In this document: positions 1,895 through 12,639 of the stretch, in pieces
Layout of the letters: every line of letters begins with the position of its first letter
Numbering within the stretch: position 1 is the first letter of the stretch
The notes under the pieces: model-generated
The model's database searches: none
Told to the model about the DNA's origin: nothing
Seen by the model: the letters and a program-made list of their open reading frames with translations, nothing else
Position numbers and translations under genes: made by a program
IMG/VR virus record: IMGVR_UViG_3300040807_002146
Location: 1-20,985 of that record
DNA from: a virus
Reading direction: 5' to 3' (one strand)
DNA length: 20,985 nt

Positions 1895-3163
1895 ATGGCA
1901 CGTAAGAAAACAAAAGCACAACTGGCACCTCGACGTAAAGCTGGCAAACTAGCAGGACCATCGTTTGACGGTTGGGAAAAACTAGAACCAGCAGCGTTTG
2001 GCAGACTTGAACGTGCTGCTGTAGACTTCTATTATCAAGAATATAAGCCTGCAGATATTATTCCTTATTTCTTTATGTGGATGAGCGAAAACGGCTACGA
2101 TAAGAAACAAGTTGCAGCCGCTAAGAAAGGTAATGTTCGACCTACTTCCGGTACATATGCTCGTATCTTGCTAGATGGTTGTCCTGACTATAATGAAGAA
2201 TATGCAAAGTATTGGACTAGCCTTCCTGGTACAGGTGATACATTAAAGCCACACTCACACTATTTGCATAAATGGGCAGAGGAAGCTATTGCCAAAGGTG
2301 AAAAAATAGTAGAAGAAGTAAAAGAAGAAGAAAAAGAAAAAGCTAACGTTTATGTACCTACTATCCAAGAACGTATTCGAGATCAATCAATTGACATGGT
2401 TGAAGATATCGATGAATGGTTAGAAGGCTGGGTAGTTGATCCTGATACATTTGATCCTAAAGGATTTGACTTTAAAAAGCATTTTCAAAAGCTACAGCCA
2501 TCGCAAGCACATGCACGTAAAATGAAAGGTTTTTATGAAAACGAACTTGCAGACTACGACGAACTCGAACGTATGCCGACTGCTGGTCAGCTCAAAAAAA
2601 TGGGCGAGTATGAACAAGACCAATGGGCACAGCTCAAAGAAGGATATTCCCATCTTAAAAAAGCAGATATCAAAAAGTTGCGCACTGCTATCGAAACCTT
2701 AATGACAGAATTAGACTTTATTATTGAAAAAGCAAAGGCAACACGTAAACCACGCAAGCCTAAAGCACGTTCTGCAACTAAAGTAGTTGAAAAGTTGAAG
2801 TTCTGTAAAGCTGACTCAAAATATTCACTCGCAAGCGTAGATCCTGTAAGTCTAGTAGGTGCAAATGAGCTTTGGGTGTTTAATATTAAAACACGTAAAC
2901 TAGGCAAGTATATAGCAAGCAATCAAGATCCAAAAGGCATGAATAGAGACGGAACGGGGCTAAGTGTAAAAGGCACAACTATTATTGGATTTGACGAAAA
3001 TCTAAGCATCCAGAAGACACTACGTAAGCCAGAAGAACAGCTTAAAGAGTTTAAAGGTGCAGGCAAAGTAGCACTACGTAAGTTCTTAGATGAAATTAAT
3101 ACCACTGACACAAAACTTAACGGCAGATGTAATCCGGATACAGTACTTCTAAAGGTTTCTTGA
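1895..3163 (+). CDS. Conserved-looking phage protein of unknown function, 422 aa
   Basis: I cannot assign a function. The protein is soluble and highly charged, with a basic N-terminus (MARKKTK), an aromatic-rich segment near 43-64 and a Glu/Lys helix at about 128-150 that may be coiled coil. A central helical part (160-280) is followed by a very basic linker KATRKPRKPK at 281-290 and a compact C-terminal domain of about 125 residues (298-422) containing ELWVFN, KGTTIIGFDE and TLRKPEEQ. From memory the C-terminal part resembles an uncharacterised protein of marine T4-like phages, but I cannot verify this. A strong AGGAGAG lies eight bases before ATG, and a sigma-70-like promoter precedes it, suggesting early expression. 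No signal peptide or membrane span. Confidence 0.85.
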   Translation: MARKKTKAQLAPRRKAGKLAGPSFDGWEKLEPAAFGRLERAAVDFYYQEYKPADIIPYFFMWMSENGYDKKQVAAAKKGNVRPTSGTYARILLDGCPDYNEEYAKYWTSLPGTGDTLKPHSHYLHKWAEEAIAKGEKIVEEVKEEEKEKANVYVPTIQERIRDQSIDMVEDIDEWLEGWVVDPDTFDPKGFDFKKHFQKLQPSQAHARKMKGFYENELADYDELERMPTAGQLKKMGEYEQDQWAQLKEGYSHLKKADIKKLRTAIETLMTELDFIIEKAKATRKPRKPKARSATKVVEKLKFCKADSKYSLASVDPVSLVGANELWVFNIKTRKLGKYIASNQDPKGMNRDGTGLSVKGTTIIGFDENLSIQKTLRKPEEQLKEFKGAGKVALRKFLDEINTTDTKLNGRCNPDTVLLKVS

Positions 3164-3169
3164 TAAATA
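3162..3169 (+). promoter_or_regulatory. T4-like late promoter (GATAAATA)
   Basis: Seven of eight bases match TATAAATA. It sits 22 bases before the ATG of the fibre-like gene at 3192, and the expected transcript start is near 3175. It partly precedes an inverted repeat around that gene's ribosome binding site. Confidence 0.65.
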
Positions 3170-3170
3170 T

Positions 3171-3207
3171 TGTTAATGGAGAAGAAAACACATGCCAAAC
3201 ATTAACA
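3171..3207 (+). promoter_or_regulatory. Inverted repeat flanking SD and start codon of the 3192 gene
   Basis: TGTTAATG at 3171-3178 is the exact complement of CATTAACA at 3200-3207. The 21-base loop holds GGAGAAG-type SD sequence and the ATG (3192-3194). RNA from the late promoter should start near 3175 and keep only half of the 5' arm, so the hairpin would form mainly in read-through RNA. Confidence 0.45.
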
Positions 3208-4055
3208 CTTCGGAACTAGATTCTGCAATAGAAGCACTCGGCACTTCTGTTAGCAATATATTACAAACTGCGTTGTCCGCCGAAGACTTTCGTTTGAAGT
3301 CACTTGTAACAATTGACTTTCAAGATGATGCAGGTCCATACGGAAAAGGCCTAAGATGGTTAGGCGAAGGAATTGGTGCTCAGTTTATTTACAGAGCAAA
3401 TCCTGATCGTATTTGGACTAGTGAAAGCATAGATCTTGCTGAAAATGCAAGTATTATGATTGGCAATAGTGTAATGTTAAGTAGAACTGAGTTAGGTAGT
3501 ACTGTAAGAAACAGTAACTTAACTAGAGTAGGTACACTTAATAATCTCCGTACACAAGGTAATCTTGTAATAGATGATTACATTTATTATAACACAGATC
3601 AAGAAGCACTTGGTATTGGCACAGAATCACCAAACGGTAAATTTGCTGTTGCAACATTAGATTCTGAATTTATCATTGACACAGCACCAGGACTAGCAAG
3701 AGCTGGAACTTGGACATCAGATGATCTACACTTAGTAACTGATAACACTACACAAGTAGTAATTAGAGCTAATGGAAATATTGAGCTTGGAAACGGATCA
3801 GCTAGTGTAAAAGTTTCAGGAAAACTTGGCGTAGGTGTAAATCAAGTAGGCGATGTATCATTAGCAGTTGCTGGTCCGATTAGAATGGACGGCAAGAAAA
3901 TGGAATCAGGTACAGCAGCACCGCAAAGTGGTACATATAAAGAAGGTGACATTGTGTGGAATAGCAATCCTGCTCCGTCGGGTTATGTTGGATGGGTATG
4001 CATTAGCTCAGGAACTCCAGGTGAATGGAAGCCATTTGGCCGAATCTCTACATAA
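3192..4055 (+). CDS. Fibre-like virion structural protein, 287 aa
   Basis: Probably a tail-fibre or other surface protein. The N-terminus (1-40) is helical. The body has the short glycine-, asparagine- and threonine-rich beta repeats of trimeric fibres, including GIGTESPNGKFAV at 141-153, a phrase common near intramolecular-chaperone fibre tails, and ANGNIELGNGSA at 193-204. The C-terminal 40 residues (GDIVWNSNPAPSGYVGWVC then PGEWKPFG) match a small tip module seen at the ends of many phage fibres. No chaperone peptidase follows. A late promoter and a good SD (GGAGAAG) precede it, as expected for a structural gene. Which virion part it forms cannot be told from sequence. Confidence 0.75.
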   Translation: MPNINTSELDSAIEALGTSVSNILQTALSAEDFRLKSLVTIDFQDDAGPYGKGLRWLGEGIGAQFIYRANPDRIWTSESIDLAENASIMIGNSVMLSRTELGSTVRNSNLTRVGTLNNLRTQGNLVIDDYIYYNTDQEALGIGTESPNGKFAVATLDSEFIIDTAPGLARAGTWTSDDLHLVTDNTTQVVIRANGNIELGNGSASVKVSGKLGVGVNQVGDVSLAVAGPIRMDGKKMESGTAAPQSGTYKEGDIVWNSNPAPSGYVGWVCISSGTPGEWKPFGRIST

Positions 4056-4062
4056 TATCAAC

Positions 4063-4082
4063 ACATTAAGAGAAATTAATGT
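4063..4082 (+). other. Intergenic AT-rich hairpin, 7-bp stem
   Basis: ACATTAA (4063-4069) pairs perfectly with TTAATGT (4076-4082) around the loop GAGAAA. It lies between the fibre-like gene and the next late promoter and has no U-run after it, so it is at best a weak pause or RNA-processing site. Confidence 0.35.
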
Positions 4083-4084
4083 CC

Positions 4085-4092
4085 AATAAATA
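4085..4092 (+). promoter_or_regulatory. T4-like late promoter (AATAAATA)
   Basis: Seven of eight bases match TATAAATA, 20 bases before the ATG of the membrane protein gene. The expected transcript start is near 4098, inside the 5' arm of a hairpin that encloses the ribosome binding site. Confidence 0.6.
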
Positions 4093-4112
4093 TATCTGTA
4101 AGGGGACAGATA
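4093..4112 (+). promoter_or_regulatory. Hairpin with the Shine-Dalgarno sequence in its loop
   Basis: TATCTGT (4093-4099) pairs perfectly with ACAGATA (4106-4112) around the six-base loop AAGGGG, which is the ribosome binding site of the gene at 4113. The stem ends immediately before the ATG. A transcript from the overlapping late promoter would start near 4098 and retain only two bases of the 5' arm, so the site would be closed only in read-through RNA. Confidence 0.5.
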
Positions 4113-4421
4113 ATGGACACTAAGAACTTCCATAAGAAAAAAATATCAGAAATTAAATGGTGGGCGTGGGCTGCTACTGTGTTACCTCTTACGGCACTAG
4201 CAGGTATGTTCTTTATAGAATATATAGGCACAGATAGTTGGTACCATATAGCGTTAGGATTAGGCGCATCGGTTATGTTTGGTATTTCTGTCGGATGGTG
4301 GTGGTGGGCTCTATGGACTATTTTACAAGATACTAATGTGTTAGGTTCAACTCTAGAAAAGTTTGACATAGTAAACACAGAAATAAAAGAAATCAAAAAA
4401 GAAATCAAAAAAGGCCCTTAA
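4113..4421 (+). CDS. Two-helix inner-membrane protein, 102 aa
   Basis: Function unknown. After a basic N-terminus (KKKISEIK) there are two hydrophobic segments, about 15-37 and 45-71, the second ending in a run of tryptophans (GWWWWALW at 61-68). A short charged tail follows, with the helix KEIKKEIKK at 92-100. The basic N-terminus suggests both ends face the cytoplasm. Late expression fits a membrane-remodelling, lysis-related or antiholin-like role, but no specific family is recognised and it is not a T4 t-type holin by sequence. The SD AAGGGG lies inside a hairpin loop. Its stop overlaps the next ATG by one base (TAATG), so the two are probably coupled. Confidence 0.8.
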   Translation: MDTKNFHKKKISEIKWWAWAATVLPLTALAGMFFIEYIGTDSWYHIALGLGASVMFGISVGWWWWALWTILQDTNVLGSTLEKFDIVNTEIKEIKKEIKKGP

Positions 4422-6127: not shown

Positions 6128-6835
6128 TTGAACTACGTTGTCTGTCTAAAATACGGCAACAAATACTCAGCGGAATATGTTAATAAACTTTACTCTATGG
6201 TAAAGCGTAATTTAACTATTCCGTTTGAGTTTGTTTGCTTTACAGAAAACCCGGAAGGAATAGATTCTGAAATAAGGATTGAACCTTTAAAAGTACAATT
6301 AGGAATTACAGGCTGGTGGTATAAACCATATTTCTTTAATCCTGATTTGGGTTTAGACGGAACGTTATTGTTCTTAGACTTAGATATAGTGATATTCGAT
6401 AATATAGATAAGCTGTTTAACTACGAACTAGGAAAGTTTTGTATAATAAGAGATTTTAATAGATTTATTGTAAAAGGTTATAACAAATTTAACAGTAGCA
6501 TTTTCAGAATACAAACTGGAATGCACTCTAATGTTTACACAGATTTTATTGCAGATCCAAAATCTGCAATACGAAGATTTGCAGGCGACCAAGACTGGAT
6601 TTTTAATAAGATTGGCAATACAAAAGAATTTGTTTTTTGGCCAGACGAATGGATACAAAGTTACAAATGGGAAATGCGCGGCAAACCAAAATTTGATACT
6701 AAGCCGAGAGGACAAAGGGACTTCGCAGAAAACGGCCATCCTGTAATTAAAGATAATACTATGGTAGCAGTATTTCACGGAGATCCAAATCCGCATAACT
6801 GTAAAGACTCTTGGGTAGTTGACAACTGGAAATAA
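6128..6835 (+). CDS. GT-A-fold glycosyltransferase, TTG start, 235 aa
   Basis: Transfers a sugar from a nucleotide sugar, target unknown. It opens with a short strand (MNYVVCLKYG) and has the metal-binding LFLDLDIVIFDNID at 81-94, with Asp84-x-Asp86 as the DxD motif. FNSSIFR at 121-127 resembles the FNSG strand of GT8-like enzymes. GDQDWIF at 153-159 and FHGDPNPH at 216-223 (a late metal-ligand histidine) are also typical. I chose TTG 6128 because it follows the QueD stop by one base, has GAGG at 6118-6121 seven bases upstream and matches where homology-like sequence begins. A GTG at 6086 would add 14 residues inside QueD and looks less likely. It ends one base before the FNR start. Confidence 0.78.
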   Translation: MNYVVCLKYGNKYSAEYVNKLYSMVKRNLTIPFEFVCFTENPEGIDSEIRIEPLKVQLGITGWWYKPYFFNPDLGLDGTLLFLDLDIVIFDNIDKLFNYELGKFCIIRDFNRFIVKGYNKFNSSIFRIQTGMHSNVYTDFIADPKSAIRRFAGDQDWIFNKIGNTKEFVFWPDEWIQSYKWEMRGKPKFDTKPRGQRDFAENGHPVIKDNTMVAVFHGDPNPHNCKDSWVVDNWK

Positions 6836-10109: not shown

Positions 10110-10173
10110 CTGCGATAATGTGTTTAAATATTAATAGTTCCCAGGAGAATTATTATGAAACACATTATCGCAG
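10110..10173 (+). promoter_or_regulatory. Perfect 16-bp inverted repeat enclosing SD and ATG of the haem-copper operon
   Basis: The arm at 10110-10125 is exactly complementary to 10158-10173. The 32-base loop holds most of the late promoter, the SD (CCAGGAGAA at 10141-10149) and the ATG (10155-10157), and the 3' arm starts right after the ATG. Read-through RNA would form a very stable stem around the initiation region. RNA from the late promoter, starting near 10136, lacks the whole 5' arm. This matches the known T4 gene e arrangement. Confidence 0.75.
10123..10130 (+). promoter_or_regulatory. T4-like late promoter (TTTAAATA)
   Basis: Seven of eight bases match TATAAATA. It straddles the inner end of the 16-bp 5' arm, and the expected start is near 10136, before the SD and ATG of the first haem-copper gene. 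Confidence 0.6.
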
Positions 10174-11438
10174 TAATCACTGTGCTGTTTCCCTTTGCTT
10201 TATCAGCACAAACTTATACAAACGAAGTAGCAGAAATTATCAATAACAATTGTGTTGTATGTCACCGTCAAGGCGGCATAGGACCAATGAGCTTTGAAAC
10301 ATATGAACAGGTGCGCCCGTGGGCACCACTTATACAATTAAAAGTAGCAAACAGAGAAATGCCTCCGTATGCTTACGATCATGGTATAGGCATACAAGAC
10401 CTACAAGGTGACTGGCGTTTATCGCAAGATGAAATAGACACAGTTGTTGCGTGGGTAAACTCAGGCGCACAGTACGGTGATCAGGATGTTGTAGTACAAG
10501 CACCTGCACTAAGAGATCCAGAAGCATGGAACTTTGAAGCAGACTTTGGTGCACCTGACGCAATTATTCCTAGTGTAGCAATTGACATTCCTGCAAACGG
10601 CAACGATCTATGGCACAAGCATTTAGTGCCAACAGGCTTGTCAGAAGACAGATGTATCAAAGCAGTACAGGTTAAGCCACGTGGCGCTGCTAAGTCAGTA
10701 GTACATCACGCTAACTCCTCTATTATCACAGCGGAAGGGCGTGAAGGCATGCTCACTGAGTATGCTATGGGAAAGTGGGGAGAGATTGTACCAGAAGGAG
10801 TCTGTCGTACAATCCCAGCAAACGCACAAGTATCGTGGGACATTCATATGTTCCCAGGTGGTCTTGGAGCAATGGCCCCAGGTTCTGTAATCAAAGACAA
10901 TGTGGTAGAGATTGGTCTCTGGTTATACACAGAAGAGGAAAGCAAACAATTAAAATACAAACAAGATTTGAGTTTGTATCGCCTTGGGGACCAGGACGAC
11001 TTAGTAGTCCCACCCAATGGATATGCAATGACGCAGGGCTTTCACAGTTTCGATCATCCTGTACGTTTAGATAGTTTTCAGCCACATGGTCACTTGCGTA
11101 TGAATGCAGCAAGTCTTGAAATCTTCTATCCACAAACAGGACGAACAGAACAAGTAAGCCAAATAAGCAAGTGGAGCGCAACTTGGCATCACAGTCATTT
11201 GTACGATCCAGAAGTAGCACCACTAATACCTGCGGGCGCAGTTATTATATTAAAACAGTGGTACGACAACACTGTTGACAATCCTAACAATCCTGACCCT
11301 GACATGTGGGTAATGGGAGGTTCAAGAACAGGAGACGAAATGACTCACGCTTGGCTTGCTATCACACACTTAGATGAAGAAGGATACAATAAATTATTAG
11401 AGGAAAGAAATGAAAAAATTAATATTGCTAGTAACTAG
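10155..11438 (+). CDS. Secreted haem c / type II copper monooxygenase-like protein, copy 1
   Basis: A predicted periplasmic redox protein of 427 residues. Residues 1-18 are a signal peptide (MKHIIAVITV, cleavage after ALSA). Residues 20-110 are a cytochrome c domain with CVVCH at 33-37 and Met69 in REMPP as likely sixth haem ligand. The rest matches peptidylglycine/dopamine monooxygenase-type copper domains: His184-His185 and His231 (IHMFPGG) for one copper site, and His311 and His313 (PHGH) with Met396 (DEMTHAW) for the other. Bacterial proteins of this layout exist, with unknown substrates; C-H hydroxylation or one-electron oxidation is inferred. The haem could replace ascorbate as electron donor. 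The start region lies in a 16-bp hairpin. It overlaps copy 2 by 29 bases. Confidence 0.85.
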   Translation: MKHIIAVITVLFPFALSAQTYTNEVAEIINNNCVVCHRQGGIGPMSFETYEQVRPWAPLIQLKVANREMPPYAYDHGIGIQDLQGDWRLSQDEIDTVVAWVNSGAQYGDQDVVVQAPALRDPEAWNFEADFGAPDAIIPSVAIDIPANGNDLWHKHLVPTGLSEDRCIKAVQVKPRGAAKSVVHHANSSIITAEGREGMLTEYAMGKWGEIVPEGVCRTIPANAQVSWDIHMFPGGLGAMAPGSVIKDNVVEIGLWLYTEEESKQLKYKQDLSLYRLGDQDDLVVPPNGYAMTQGFHSFDHPVRLDSFQPHGHLRMNAASLEIFYPQTGRTEQVSQISKWSATWHHSHLYDPEVAPLIPAGAVIILKQWYDNTVDNPNNPDPDMWVMGGSRTGDEMTHAWLAITHLDEEGYNKLLEERNEKINIASN

Positions 11439-12639
11439 TTTATTTGCAACTACAATTTATGCAGATGAAATTGATTATGCAAGAGATGTTGCACCTATCT
11501 TTGTAGAGCAGTGTCAAGCATGTCACAGAGAAGGCGGCATTGCTCCTTGGGCAATGACTAACTATCAAATTCTACAAGGCTTTGCTCCTGCAATCAAAGA
11601 GGCTATTGTATCAAAGCGTATGCCTCCAGGACAAATTGATCGTAAGTATGCAGGCACAATTGTCAATCACAGAACTCTAAGTAACAGAGAGATTGATACT
11701 ATTGTAGAGTGGATTGACGCAGGTGCACCTGTTGAAGGTGATGTAGATCCGTTGACGGAAACTGTTTACTCTACTTCAGAGTGGGTACATGGCGAACCTG
11801 ATATGATTATCGAAGTACCACCGCAAGAGATTCCAGCAGTGGGTACAATGGGTCCTAATGCAATTCCATATCGTTATGTAAGTGTTCCTTTAGGATTGAC
11901 GGAGGATCGCTGGTTGCGTGGTTCAGAGTTCTTACCTTCAGAGCCTACTGTAATGCATCACATGCTGAACACAGTAACTATACCTGGTGAACGCAACGGT
12001 AACTTGTTAGGCGCACAGGGTGAAGGACAAGGTAACATGGAGTATGCAACTATCAGTGCATATGTTCCTGGTGGTGATCCTGATTACTATGACGCTAACA
12101 CAGGCGGACTTTTACGTGCAGGGTCAATTGTAAATCTACAGTTGCACTATACACCAGACGGAACTGCAAGAACTGACAAAGCACGTATTGGACTATACTT
12201 TCACGACGAAGGTGTAGTACCAGAAGAGAGAATGGCAGGCGACTGTGCTTGTATCTTCCCTAACAACTGGACTCCGATTCCACCGTTTGATCCTAACTTT
12301 GTACAGACAGCAGAAATTACTCTAAAGAATGATATTATGTTGCACACATTCTTACCACACATGCACTTCCGTGGCAAGAGTATGCGAGCAACTGCAATTT
12401 ATGCTGACGGTACACGAGAAGAACTAATTGATATTCCTAAGTATGACTATGCTTGGCAACTTTCGTATACATGGAAAGAGCCTAAGTTTATTCCTGCAGG
12501 AACTCGTTTGTTTGTTGAAGGTGCGTTTGATAATAGTGAAGATAATCCAATGAATCCAGACCCAAGCAGACTAGTACCTTGGGGACAGATGTCAGAGGAT
12601 GAAATGTTCTTTGGAGCATTTACTTGGAAAAACCTATAA
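11410..12639 (+). CDS. Secreted haem c / type II copper monooxygenase-like protein, copy 2
   Basis: A 409-residue paralogue of the preceding protein. The signal peptide is 1-18 (cleavage after IYA), haem site CQACH at 35-39, and candidate axial Met71 in KRMPP. The copper body has VMHHM at 181-185 (His183, His184), LQLHY (His246), LPHMH at 315-319 (His317, His319) and DEMFFG with Met399, so both copper sites look complete and canonical. The copies are clearly diverged, so this is an old duplication or two separate acquisitions, and they may form a heterodimer. AGAGGAAAG precedes ATG 11410 within the end of copy 1, implying coupled translation. Haem attachment needs the host Ccm system. The stop codon lies inside a hairpin shared with the convergent zinc-ribbon gene. 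Confidence 0.86.
   Translation: MKKLILLVTSLFATTIYADEIDYARDVAPIFVEQCQACHREGGIAPWAMTNYQILQGFAPAIKEAIVSKRMPPGQIDRKYAGTIVNHRTLSNREIDTIVEWIDAGAPVEGDVDPLTETVYSTSEWVHGEPDMIIEVPPQEIPAVGTMGPNAIPYRYVSVPLGLTEDRWLRGSEFLPSEPTVMHHMLNTVTIPGERNGNLLGAQGEGQGNMEYATISAYVPGGDPDYYDANTGGLLRAGSIVNLQLHYTPDGTARTDKARIGLYFHDEGVVPEERMAGDCACIFPNNWTPIPPFDPNFVQTAEITLKNDIMLHTFLPHMHFRGKSMRATAIYADGTREELIDIPKYDYAWQLSYTWKEPKFIPAGTRLFVEGAFDNSEDNPMNPDPSRLVPWGQMSEDEMFFGAFTWKNL

Follow-up and report, generated by a model that had tools for sequence, protein, structure and literature searches.

Does the DNA before a small membrane-protein gene of a marine phage encode an RNA switch that closes the gene's ribosome site on RNA entering from upstream and leaves it open on RNA begun at the gene's own late promoter? 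The question arises at positions 4080–4119 of the window, by which we mean the whole stretch of DNA analysed, an IMG/VR fragment of 20,985 bases from a marine T4-like, Kyanoviridae-like phage. The window encodes a DNA ligase, a deaminase, a 2OG-Fe(II) oxygenase, and a QueD-like protein, and its long tail-fibre gene begins like T4 gp9/10. Pelagibacter phage HTVC008M carries relatives of one window gene. In T4, the ribosome sites of e (lysozyme), soc, and 49 are closed on long early RNA and open on RNA from a late promoter within the 5' strand of the hairpin (PMC3014915), and soc and 49 are among the genes with inhibitory structures (PMC3014915, PMC2988022). We assign a probability of about 0.7 to the reading that the element at 4080–4119 is a promoter-spanning riboregulator of this T4 late-gene kind. 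The features of the locus are as follows.

3162–3169, + strand: late-type octamer GATAAATA before the tail-fibre-like gene, from which further RNA would run into gene 4113
3192–4055, + strand: tail-fibre-like gene, 287 aa, adjoining the membrane-protein gene on its upstream side
4063–4082, + strand: neighbouring 7-bp hairpin ACATTAA/TTAATGT, rival of the outer stem (fold)
4080–4085, + strand: 5' arm of the outer stem, TGTCCA (sequence, fold)
4085–4092, + strand: late promoter octamer AATAAATA, abutting the inner 5' arm (position enrichment, known motif)
4093–4099, + strand: 5' arm of the inner stem, TATCTGT (sequence, fold)
4097–4100, + strand: predicted late transcription start, 4098 being 13 nt after the first octamer base
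4100–4105, + strand: Shine-Dalgarno sequence (SD) AAGGGG, filling the six-base loop, 7 nt before the ATG (sequence)
4106–4112, + strand: 3' arm of the inner stem, ACAGATA (sequence, fold)
4113–4115, + strand: start codon ATG of the membrane-protein gene (sequence)
4113–4421, + strand: membrane-protein gene, 102 aa, with two hydrophobic stretches and a WWWWA motif, of a family without named function
4114–4119, + strand: 3' arm of the outer stem, TGGACA, covering the UG of the start codon (sequence, fold)

The 102-residue protein has no Pfam match and no solved relative. In PHROGs, the window protein has 0 matches and single family members have isolated weak ones; given these results, holin or any other named function is left unassigned.

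Predicted folds and start site at 4080–4119

The letters and coordinates that an earlier note had given for 4080–4119 are all correct on re-reading. The outer pair TGTCCA/TGGACA surrounds the octamer, the inner hairpin, the SD, and the ATG. The folding energy of the inner hairpin is -5.8 kcal/mol, and that of the inner and outer stems together is -11.2 kcal/mol. In the fold of an 85-nt RNA, both stems are present in the centroid; in the minimum free energy (MFE) structure, the inner stem is kept and the outer stem is replaced by the hairpin at 4063–4082. The weaker outer pair of the earlier note thus exists with the letters given for it, but it competes with the neighbouring hairpin and is absent from the MFE structure. 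In addition, TGTCC of the outer 5' arm can alternatively pair with GGACA at 4104–4108, and hence with the 3' end of the SD, as read off the sequence. The SD itself sits in the loop, and the UG of the AUG lies in the outer stem in the centroid and outside it in the MFE structure. Because the SD is in a loop and not in a stem, inhibition depends on the entire initiation region being folded.

For read-through RNA, folding predicts a cost of 11.1 kcal/mol for opening the initiation region (-14 to +4), with a range of 9.3–13.7 kcal/mol when the context is varied from 20 to 120 nt upstream. On RNA started at 4097–4100, the predicted cost is 3.0 kcal/mol, in keeping with the claim that the ribosome site is closed on read-through RNA. 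Starts from 4097 onward are predicted to abolish the hairpin, whereas starts at 4090–4096 are not and would still leave an opening cost of 5.6–9.6 kcal/mol. The switch therefore works on paper, yet it hinges on a few bases of the start position. Terminator prediction finds none in 4056–4112.

In marine T4-like phages, the octamer NATAAATA has been reported as the motif of late promoters (PMC2984593). Five of its six copies in the window lie 25–35 nt before a start codon (binomial 8e-9). Because the motif is known from such phages and is enriched in position, we take 4085–4092 as the late promoter. By analogy to T4, late transcription is predicted to start at about 4098, and a genome-wide peak of start codons at a distance of 13 nt (see below) supports this spacing independently. 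The octamer was claimed to lie in or before the 5' arm, and this agrees with a promoter at 4085–4092 and a predicted start at 4098, inside or after the inner arm. The octamer at 3162 overlaps the stop codon of the preceding gene.

How often would such closure arise by chance? Perfect 7-bp stems with loops of 3–8 nt number 26 in the window, compared with 10.6 +/- 4.4 in shuffles. In an MFE-based shuffle test, the octamer and everything downstream are held fixed, the upstream flank is shuffled, and the cost of opening the ribosome site is compared. For gene 4113, the observed cost is attained by 1.7–2.6% of the flank shuffles. The positive controls T4 e, I-TevI, and I-TevII are all at the floor, indicating that the test detects known cases. 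A p of about 0.02 at one gene chosen for its looks is weak evidence by itself. The ribosome site of gene 3192 is also closed on read-through RNA (10.3 vs 0.8 kcal/mol; shuffle p 0.007–0.010).

Among all late genes outside T4, the shuffle test gives p up to 0.05 for 20 of 169 late-promoter genes and for 14 of 200 promoterless genes (Fisher 0.08). General closure at late genes is weakly above that at promoterless genes, which is suggestive only. A genome-wide version of the flank swap described below gives a mean rank of 0.471 (z -2.5), with controls at 0.512 (z -0.4). Since this genome-wide signal is weak, we limit the claim to the membrane-gene family and to the class of hairpins with the SD in the loop.

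Matching of flank and ribosome site in the membrane-gene family

As a single query against the viral contigs and the phage collection, the membrane protein finds nothing; relatives of the gene are reached by way of its neighbour and of three aligned orthologs. Comparison of the arms in relatives had been set beforehand as a result on which the proposal could fail. The exact arms TATCTGT/ACAGATA, sought among the relatives found, are present in none, and by this comparison the arms are not conserved. The recurring feature among the relatives is that unrelated arms close the ribosome site. Closure is strong in two relatives (read-through vs late RNA, 11.8 vs 1.7 kcal/mol in L023 and 10.8 vs 3.6 kcal/mol in L115), and in ortholog L250 a 9-bp and a 6-bp stem extend across TATAAATA and the SD (19.2 vs 3.1 kcal/mol). 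Closure is weak in L022, L026, and L116. The nearest relatives (L022 and L116, 59–61%) reach 4.4 and 3.9 kcal/mol, which weighs against the switch. Relatives that lack an octamer have open ribosome sites (0–3.3 kcal/mol), and we count these against the switch as well.

We also cast the comparison as an alignment-free test of covariation. Each ribosome site is folded with its own upstream flank and then with 25 foreign flanks, in a sample of 26 family members, each with an octamer (NATAAATA or NTTAAATA) and a leader; an SD can be recognised in nearly all of them. The opening cost is 9.73 kcal/mol with own flanks and 6.23 kcal/mol with foreign flanks, and the mean rank is 0.20. None of 20,000 permutations reaches the observed value, which puts p at the floor of 5e-5, and the result is the same without the window. 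Swapping just the 40 nt before the octamer has the same outcome. The matching is specific to the ribosome site: a pseudo-site at +22..+40 shows none (p 0.97), nor does a remote upstream stretch (p 0.92). The swap gives p 2e-5 for the 20 members collected once the hypothesis was in place, 2e-5 for the NATAAATA members alone, and 2e-5 when near-similar members are dropped. The window member has a rank of 0.115 against foreign flanks.

Selection has thus matched each flank upstream of a late start to its own ribosome site, though the arms turn over. Because the pairing is selected while the arms change, simple conservation looked negative. A selected function, as argued in the earlier note, is supported at the level of the family; the particular hairpin, with its SD in the loop, is present in none of the relatives found. 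The pairing, the energies, and the family-wide matching of flank and ribosome site are computational results.

Related hairpins and predicted leaderless starts

A layout resembling that at 4080–4119 had been reported further downstream in the window, and it is real.

10110–10173, + strand: parallel structure before gene 10155, with 16-bp outer arms at 10110–10125 and 10158–10173
10123–10130, + strand: octamer-like TTTAAATA, lying between outer and inner arms
10132–10140 and 10147–10155, + strand: 9-bp inner arms, with the SD in the six-base loop CCAGGA at 10141–10146

As at 4080–4119, there are two stems with the octamer between them, an SD in a six-base loop, and a start codon between the stems. 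Unlike at 4080–4119, the 16-bp outer arm enters the coding sequence, and there are compensatory changes in relatives. In the window and in L049, L054, and L060, all 16 of 16 outer pairs are kept; in three of them both partners have changed, and G-U steps occur at others. When the 3' arms of nine distinct sequences are re-dealt, the observed pairing is attained in 0.8% of cases; the 3' arm is partly coding sequence. The structure at 10110–10173 covaries and is the better supported of the two copies. The promoter-spanning hairpin precedes a gene for a 427-aa exported cytochrome-like protein, here and in L035, L037, L039, L040, L042, L049, L050, L054, and L060, and it is in a shifted register in the relatives L037/L038. 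The gene at 10155–11438 and that at 11410–12639 encode adjacent exported proteins, both with CxxCH-type motifs. The protein of 10155–11438 has a weak cytochrome c match; the collection of viral contigs encodes relatives of it at 257 stretches, and PHROGs has no family for it.

Hairpins with the SD in the loop were surveyed in T4, RB49, Aeh1, KVP40, S-PM2, Syn9, P-SSM2, P-SSM4, HTVC008M, Mosig, and marine contigs. Perfect stems of at least 7 bp flank the SD in 11 of 231 late-promoter genes and in 11 of 1603 others (Fisher 2e-5). The frequency of such hairpins at late-promoter genes is thus seven times that at other genes, and the permutation expectation is 1.9 +/- 1.4. Stems of at least 8 bp are found at 5 late-promoter genes and at 0 others. 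The enrichment holds without the window (p 7.6e-5) and without the window and T4 (8e-4). The scan recovers T4 soc and 49; T4 e is found by the shuffle test. By geometry, a stem with the SD in its loop abuts the octamer in a late leader of such length, so that a late start would cut the 5' arm.

Several members of this class were seen in the marine contigs. In the MSRPKP family (minus strand; L147 at 4103, L166 at 8967, and L253 at 2314), the octamer is followed by an SD-flanking stem beside the ATG, with arms that are shared by two of the orthologs and unrelated in the third. Two MEMISR/MDMIYR membrane proteins (minus strand; L148 at 19551 and L159 at 5503) are 91% identical and have the same octamer with unrelated SD-flanking hairpins (CATTAGC/GCTAATG and ATAGTAA/TTACTAT). 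In IMGVR_UViG_3300023238_000005 (L178, minus strand, 19008), a 255-aa gene that starts MSKTGFIYMWESATDNKKYIGSH and looks GIY-YIG-like by eye has the leader GATAAATA AT ACTATAC AAAGGA GTATAGT ATT ATG, a nearly identical design that recalls the hairpins of T4 homing endonucleases.

The relatives of the membrane gene also display a second arrangement. When 51 ortholog clusters are sorted by layout, the octamer lies 16–39 nt before the start codon in 26, and 24 of these 26 have an SD. In 12 of the 51, the octamer lies exactly 12–13 nt before the start codon and an SD is present in 0 of 12 (L320, L321, L323, L326, L327, L331, L350, L351, L353, L356, L359, and L055). With a late start predicted 13 nt beyond the first base of the octamer, the RNAs of these 12 clusters should be leaderless. 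The distance from NATAAATA to the start codon in all fetched genomes has a sharp peak at 13 nt (46 genes, 45 without an SD), with 1 and 6 start codons at the neighbouring distances of 11 and 14 nt and a broad leadered hump at 24–45 nt. HTVC008M, Mosig, and marine contigs show the peak, whereas T4, RB49, KVP40, Aeh1, S-PM2, and Syn9 do not. At 6280, 18916, 19456, and 49760 of HTVC008M (KC465899), the deposited start codons agree with the SD-less arrangement at 12–13 nt, and two of these four genes have structural names, DNA end protector and tail tube associated baseplate protein. The sequences thus imply leaderless late mRNA in twelve relatives and, genome-wide, in pelagiphages. In a literature search on leaderless RNA in connection with T4-like late promoters, one paper came up, and its sole mention of the subject is in the title of a reference.

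A read-through RNA would offer such genes neither an SD nor a 5' AUG, so a leaderless start would tie translation to the gene's own late promoter. The membrane-gene family might then be translatable solely from RNA of its own late promoter, by two interchangeable designs, a hairpin-closed SD or a leaderless start; we put this forward tentatively, with odds of roughly one in three.

Proposed mechanism, alternative readings, and significance

We infer the start position, the existence of read-through RNA, the effect on translation, and the purpose of the switch as follows. On RNA entering from upstream, the segment 5' of and just past the octamer would pair across the ribosome site of gene 4113. 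Binding of the 30S subunit would have to pay about 11 kcal/mol, and the gene would be largely silent. RNA begun at about 4098 would be missing the whole 5' arm of the outer stem and most of that of the inner stem; with a leader of 15 nt and AAGGGG exposed, it would be translated. Gene 4113 would thus be expressed essentially from its own late promoter alone. The membrane protein may in this way be held off until late, or its amount may be uncoupled from the upstream tail-fibre gene. The two purposes, temporal gate and insulator against tail-fibre RNA, are equally open. An early timing of the read-through RNA and harm done by the protein, as the earlier note envisaged, gain no support from these results.

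Taken by itself, the proposal that the same switch insulates the membrane gene from late tail-fibre RNA (promoter 3162), with the gene's own promoter fixing the amount, has a probability not far below one half. The tail-fibre-like neighbour has its own late octamer, which makes read-through of late RNA no less plausible than that of early RNA. Relatives preserve the gene order tail fibre, membrane protein, glycosyltransferase-like protein. Judging from the coordinates, a ribosome that terminates at 4055 should not unfold the structure, the outer arm lying 25 nt beyond that stop codon. However, the ligase and deaminase genes further upstream of 4113 on the same strand could supply early or middle RNA, and the closure of gene 3192 is what is expected if early RNA crosses both genes.

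Other readings deny the switch. That the hairpin at 4093–4112 is a chance palindrome without effect is improbable: the single-locus p is modest (0.017–0.026), short stems are in excess throughout the window, and the arms are unconserved, but the family swap test and the class enrichment without the window make a functionless copy unlikely, as does the rank of the window member. We regard it as more improbable still that the hairpin is a stability or processing element of the upstream mRNA. In its favour, a second stem at 4063–4082 directly follows the tail-fibre stop codon, but there is no U-run and hence no terminator, and the family-wide matching is with the ribosome site and not with a control stretch. 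The least probable reading, which we consider very unlikely, is that the dyad has its effect at the DNA level, for instance as an operator overlapping the late promoter. The inverted repeat abuts the octamer, and I-TevI is known to repress its own late promoter (PMC2988022); against this, the arms vary from one relative to the next yet continue to pair with the ribosome site, and many members pair across the SD or start codon with no DNA dyad at a fixed place.

The promoter-spanning riboregulator, which we prefer, has close counterparts. As in T4 e, soc, and 49, the octamer NATAAATA lies in or beside the 5' arm, and closure is confined to read-through RNA, here by prediction. Unlike in those genes, the regulated gene encodes a membrane protein of a marine phage, the SD sits in the loop of an inner stem, the start codon touches an outer stem, and the case is known computationally. 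Some homologs of gene e are without the structure (PMC3014915), indicating that identical arms in orthologs are not required for membership in the class. Hairpins are also found at T4 I-TevI, I-TevII, I-TevIII, and segB, and at Aeh1 mobE (PMC2988022). As in this group, the late start would remove the 5' arm, a prediction in our case; the hairpins of the group guard homing endonucleases, and the delay of I-TevI protects intron splicing, whereas the window gene encodes a membrane protein. The locus adds a new case to a class of read-through hairpins already known from T4 late genes, and at the level of the family the evidence for a selected function is good.

These results extend the hairpin logic of T4 late genes to abundant marine phages and to a membrane-protein family of unnamed function. 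The pairing is selected under complete sequence turnover, which an ordinary alignment would score as non-conserved, and the swap test can detect such switches in uncultured phages. The 13-nt peak gives testable start sites for late genes in pelagiphages and bears on the use of leaderless RNA in marine bacteria. If the leaderless reading is true, leaderless late initiation would be a general mode of gene control in pelagiphage-like viruses.
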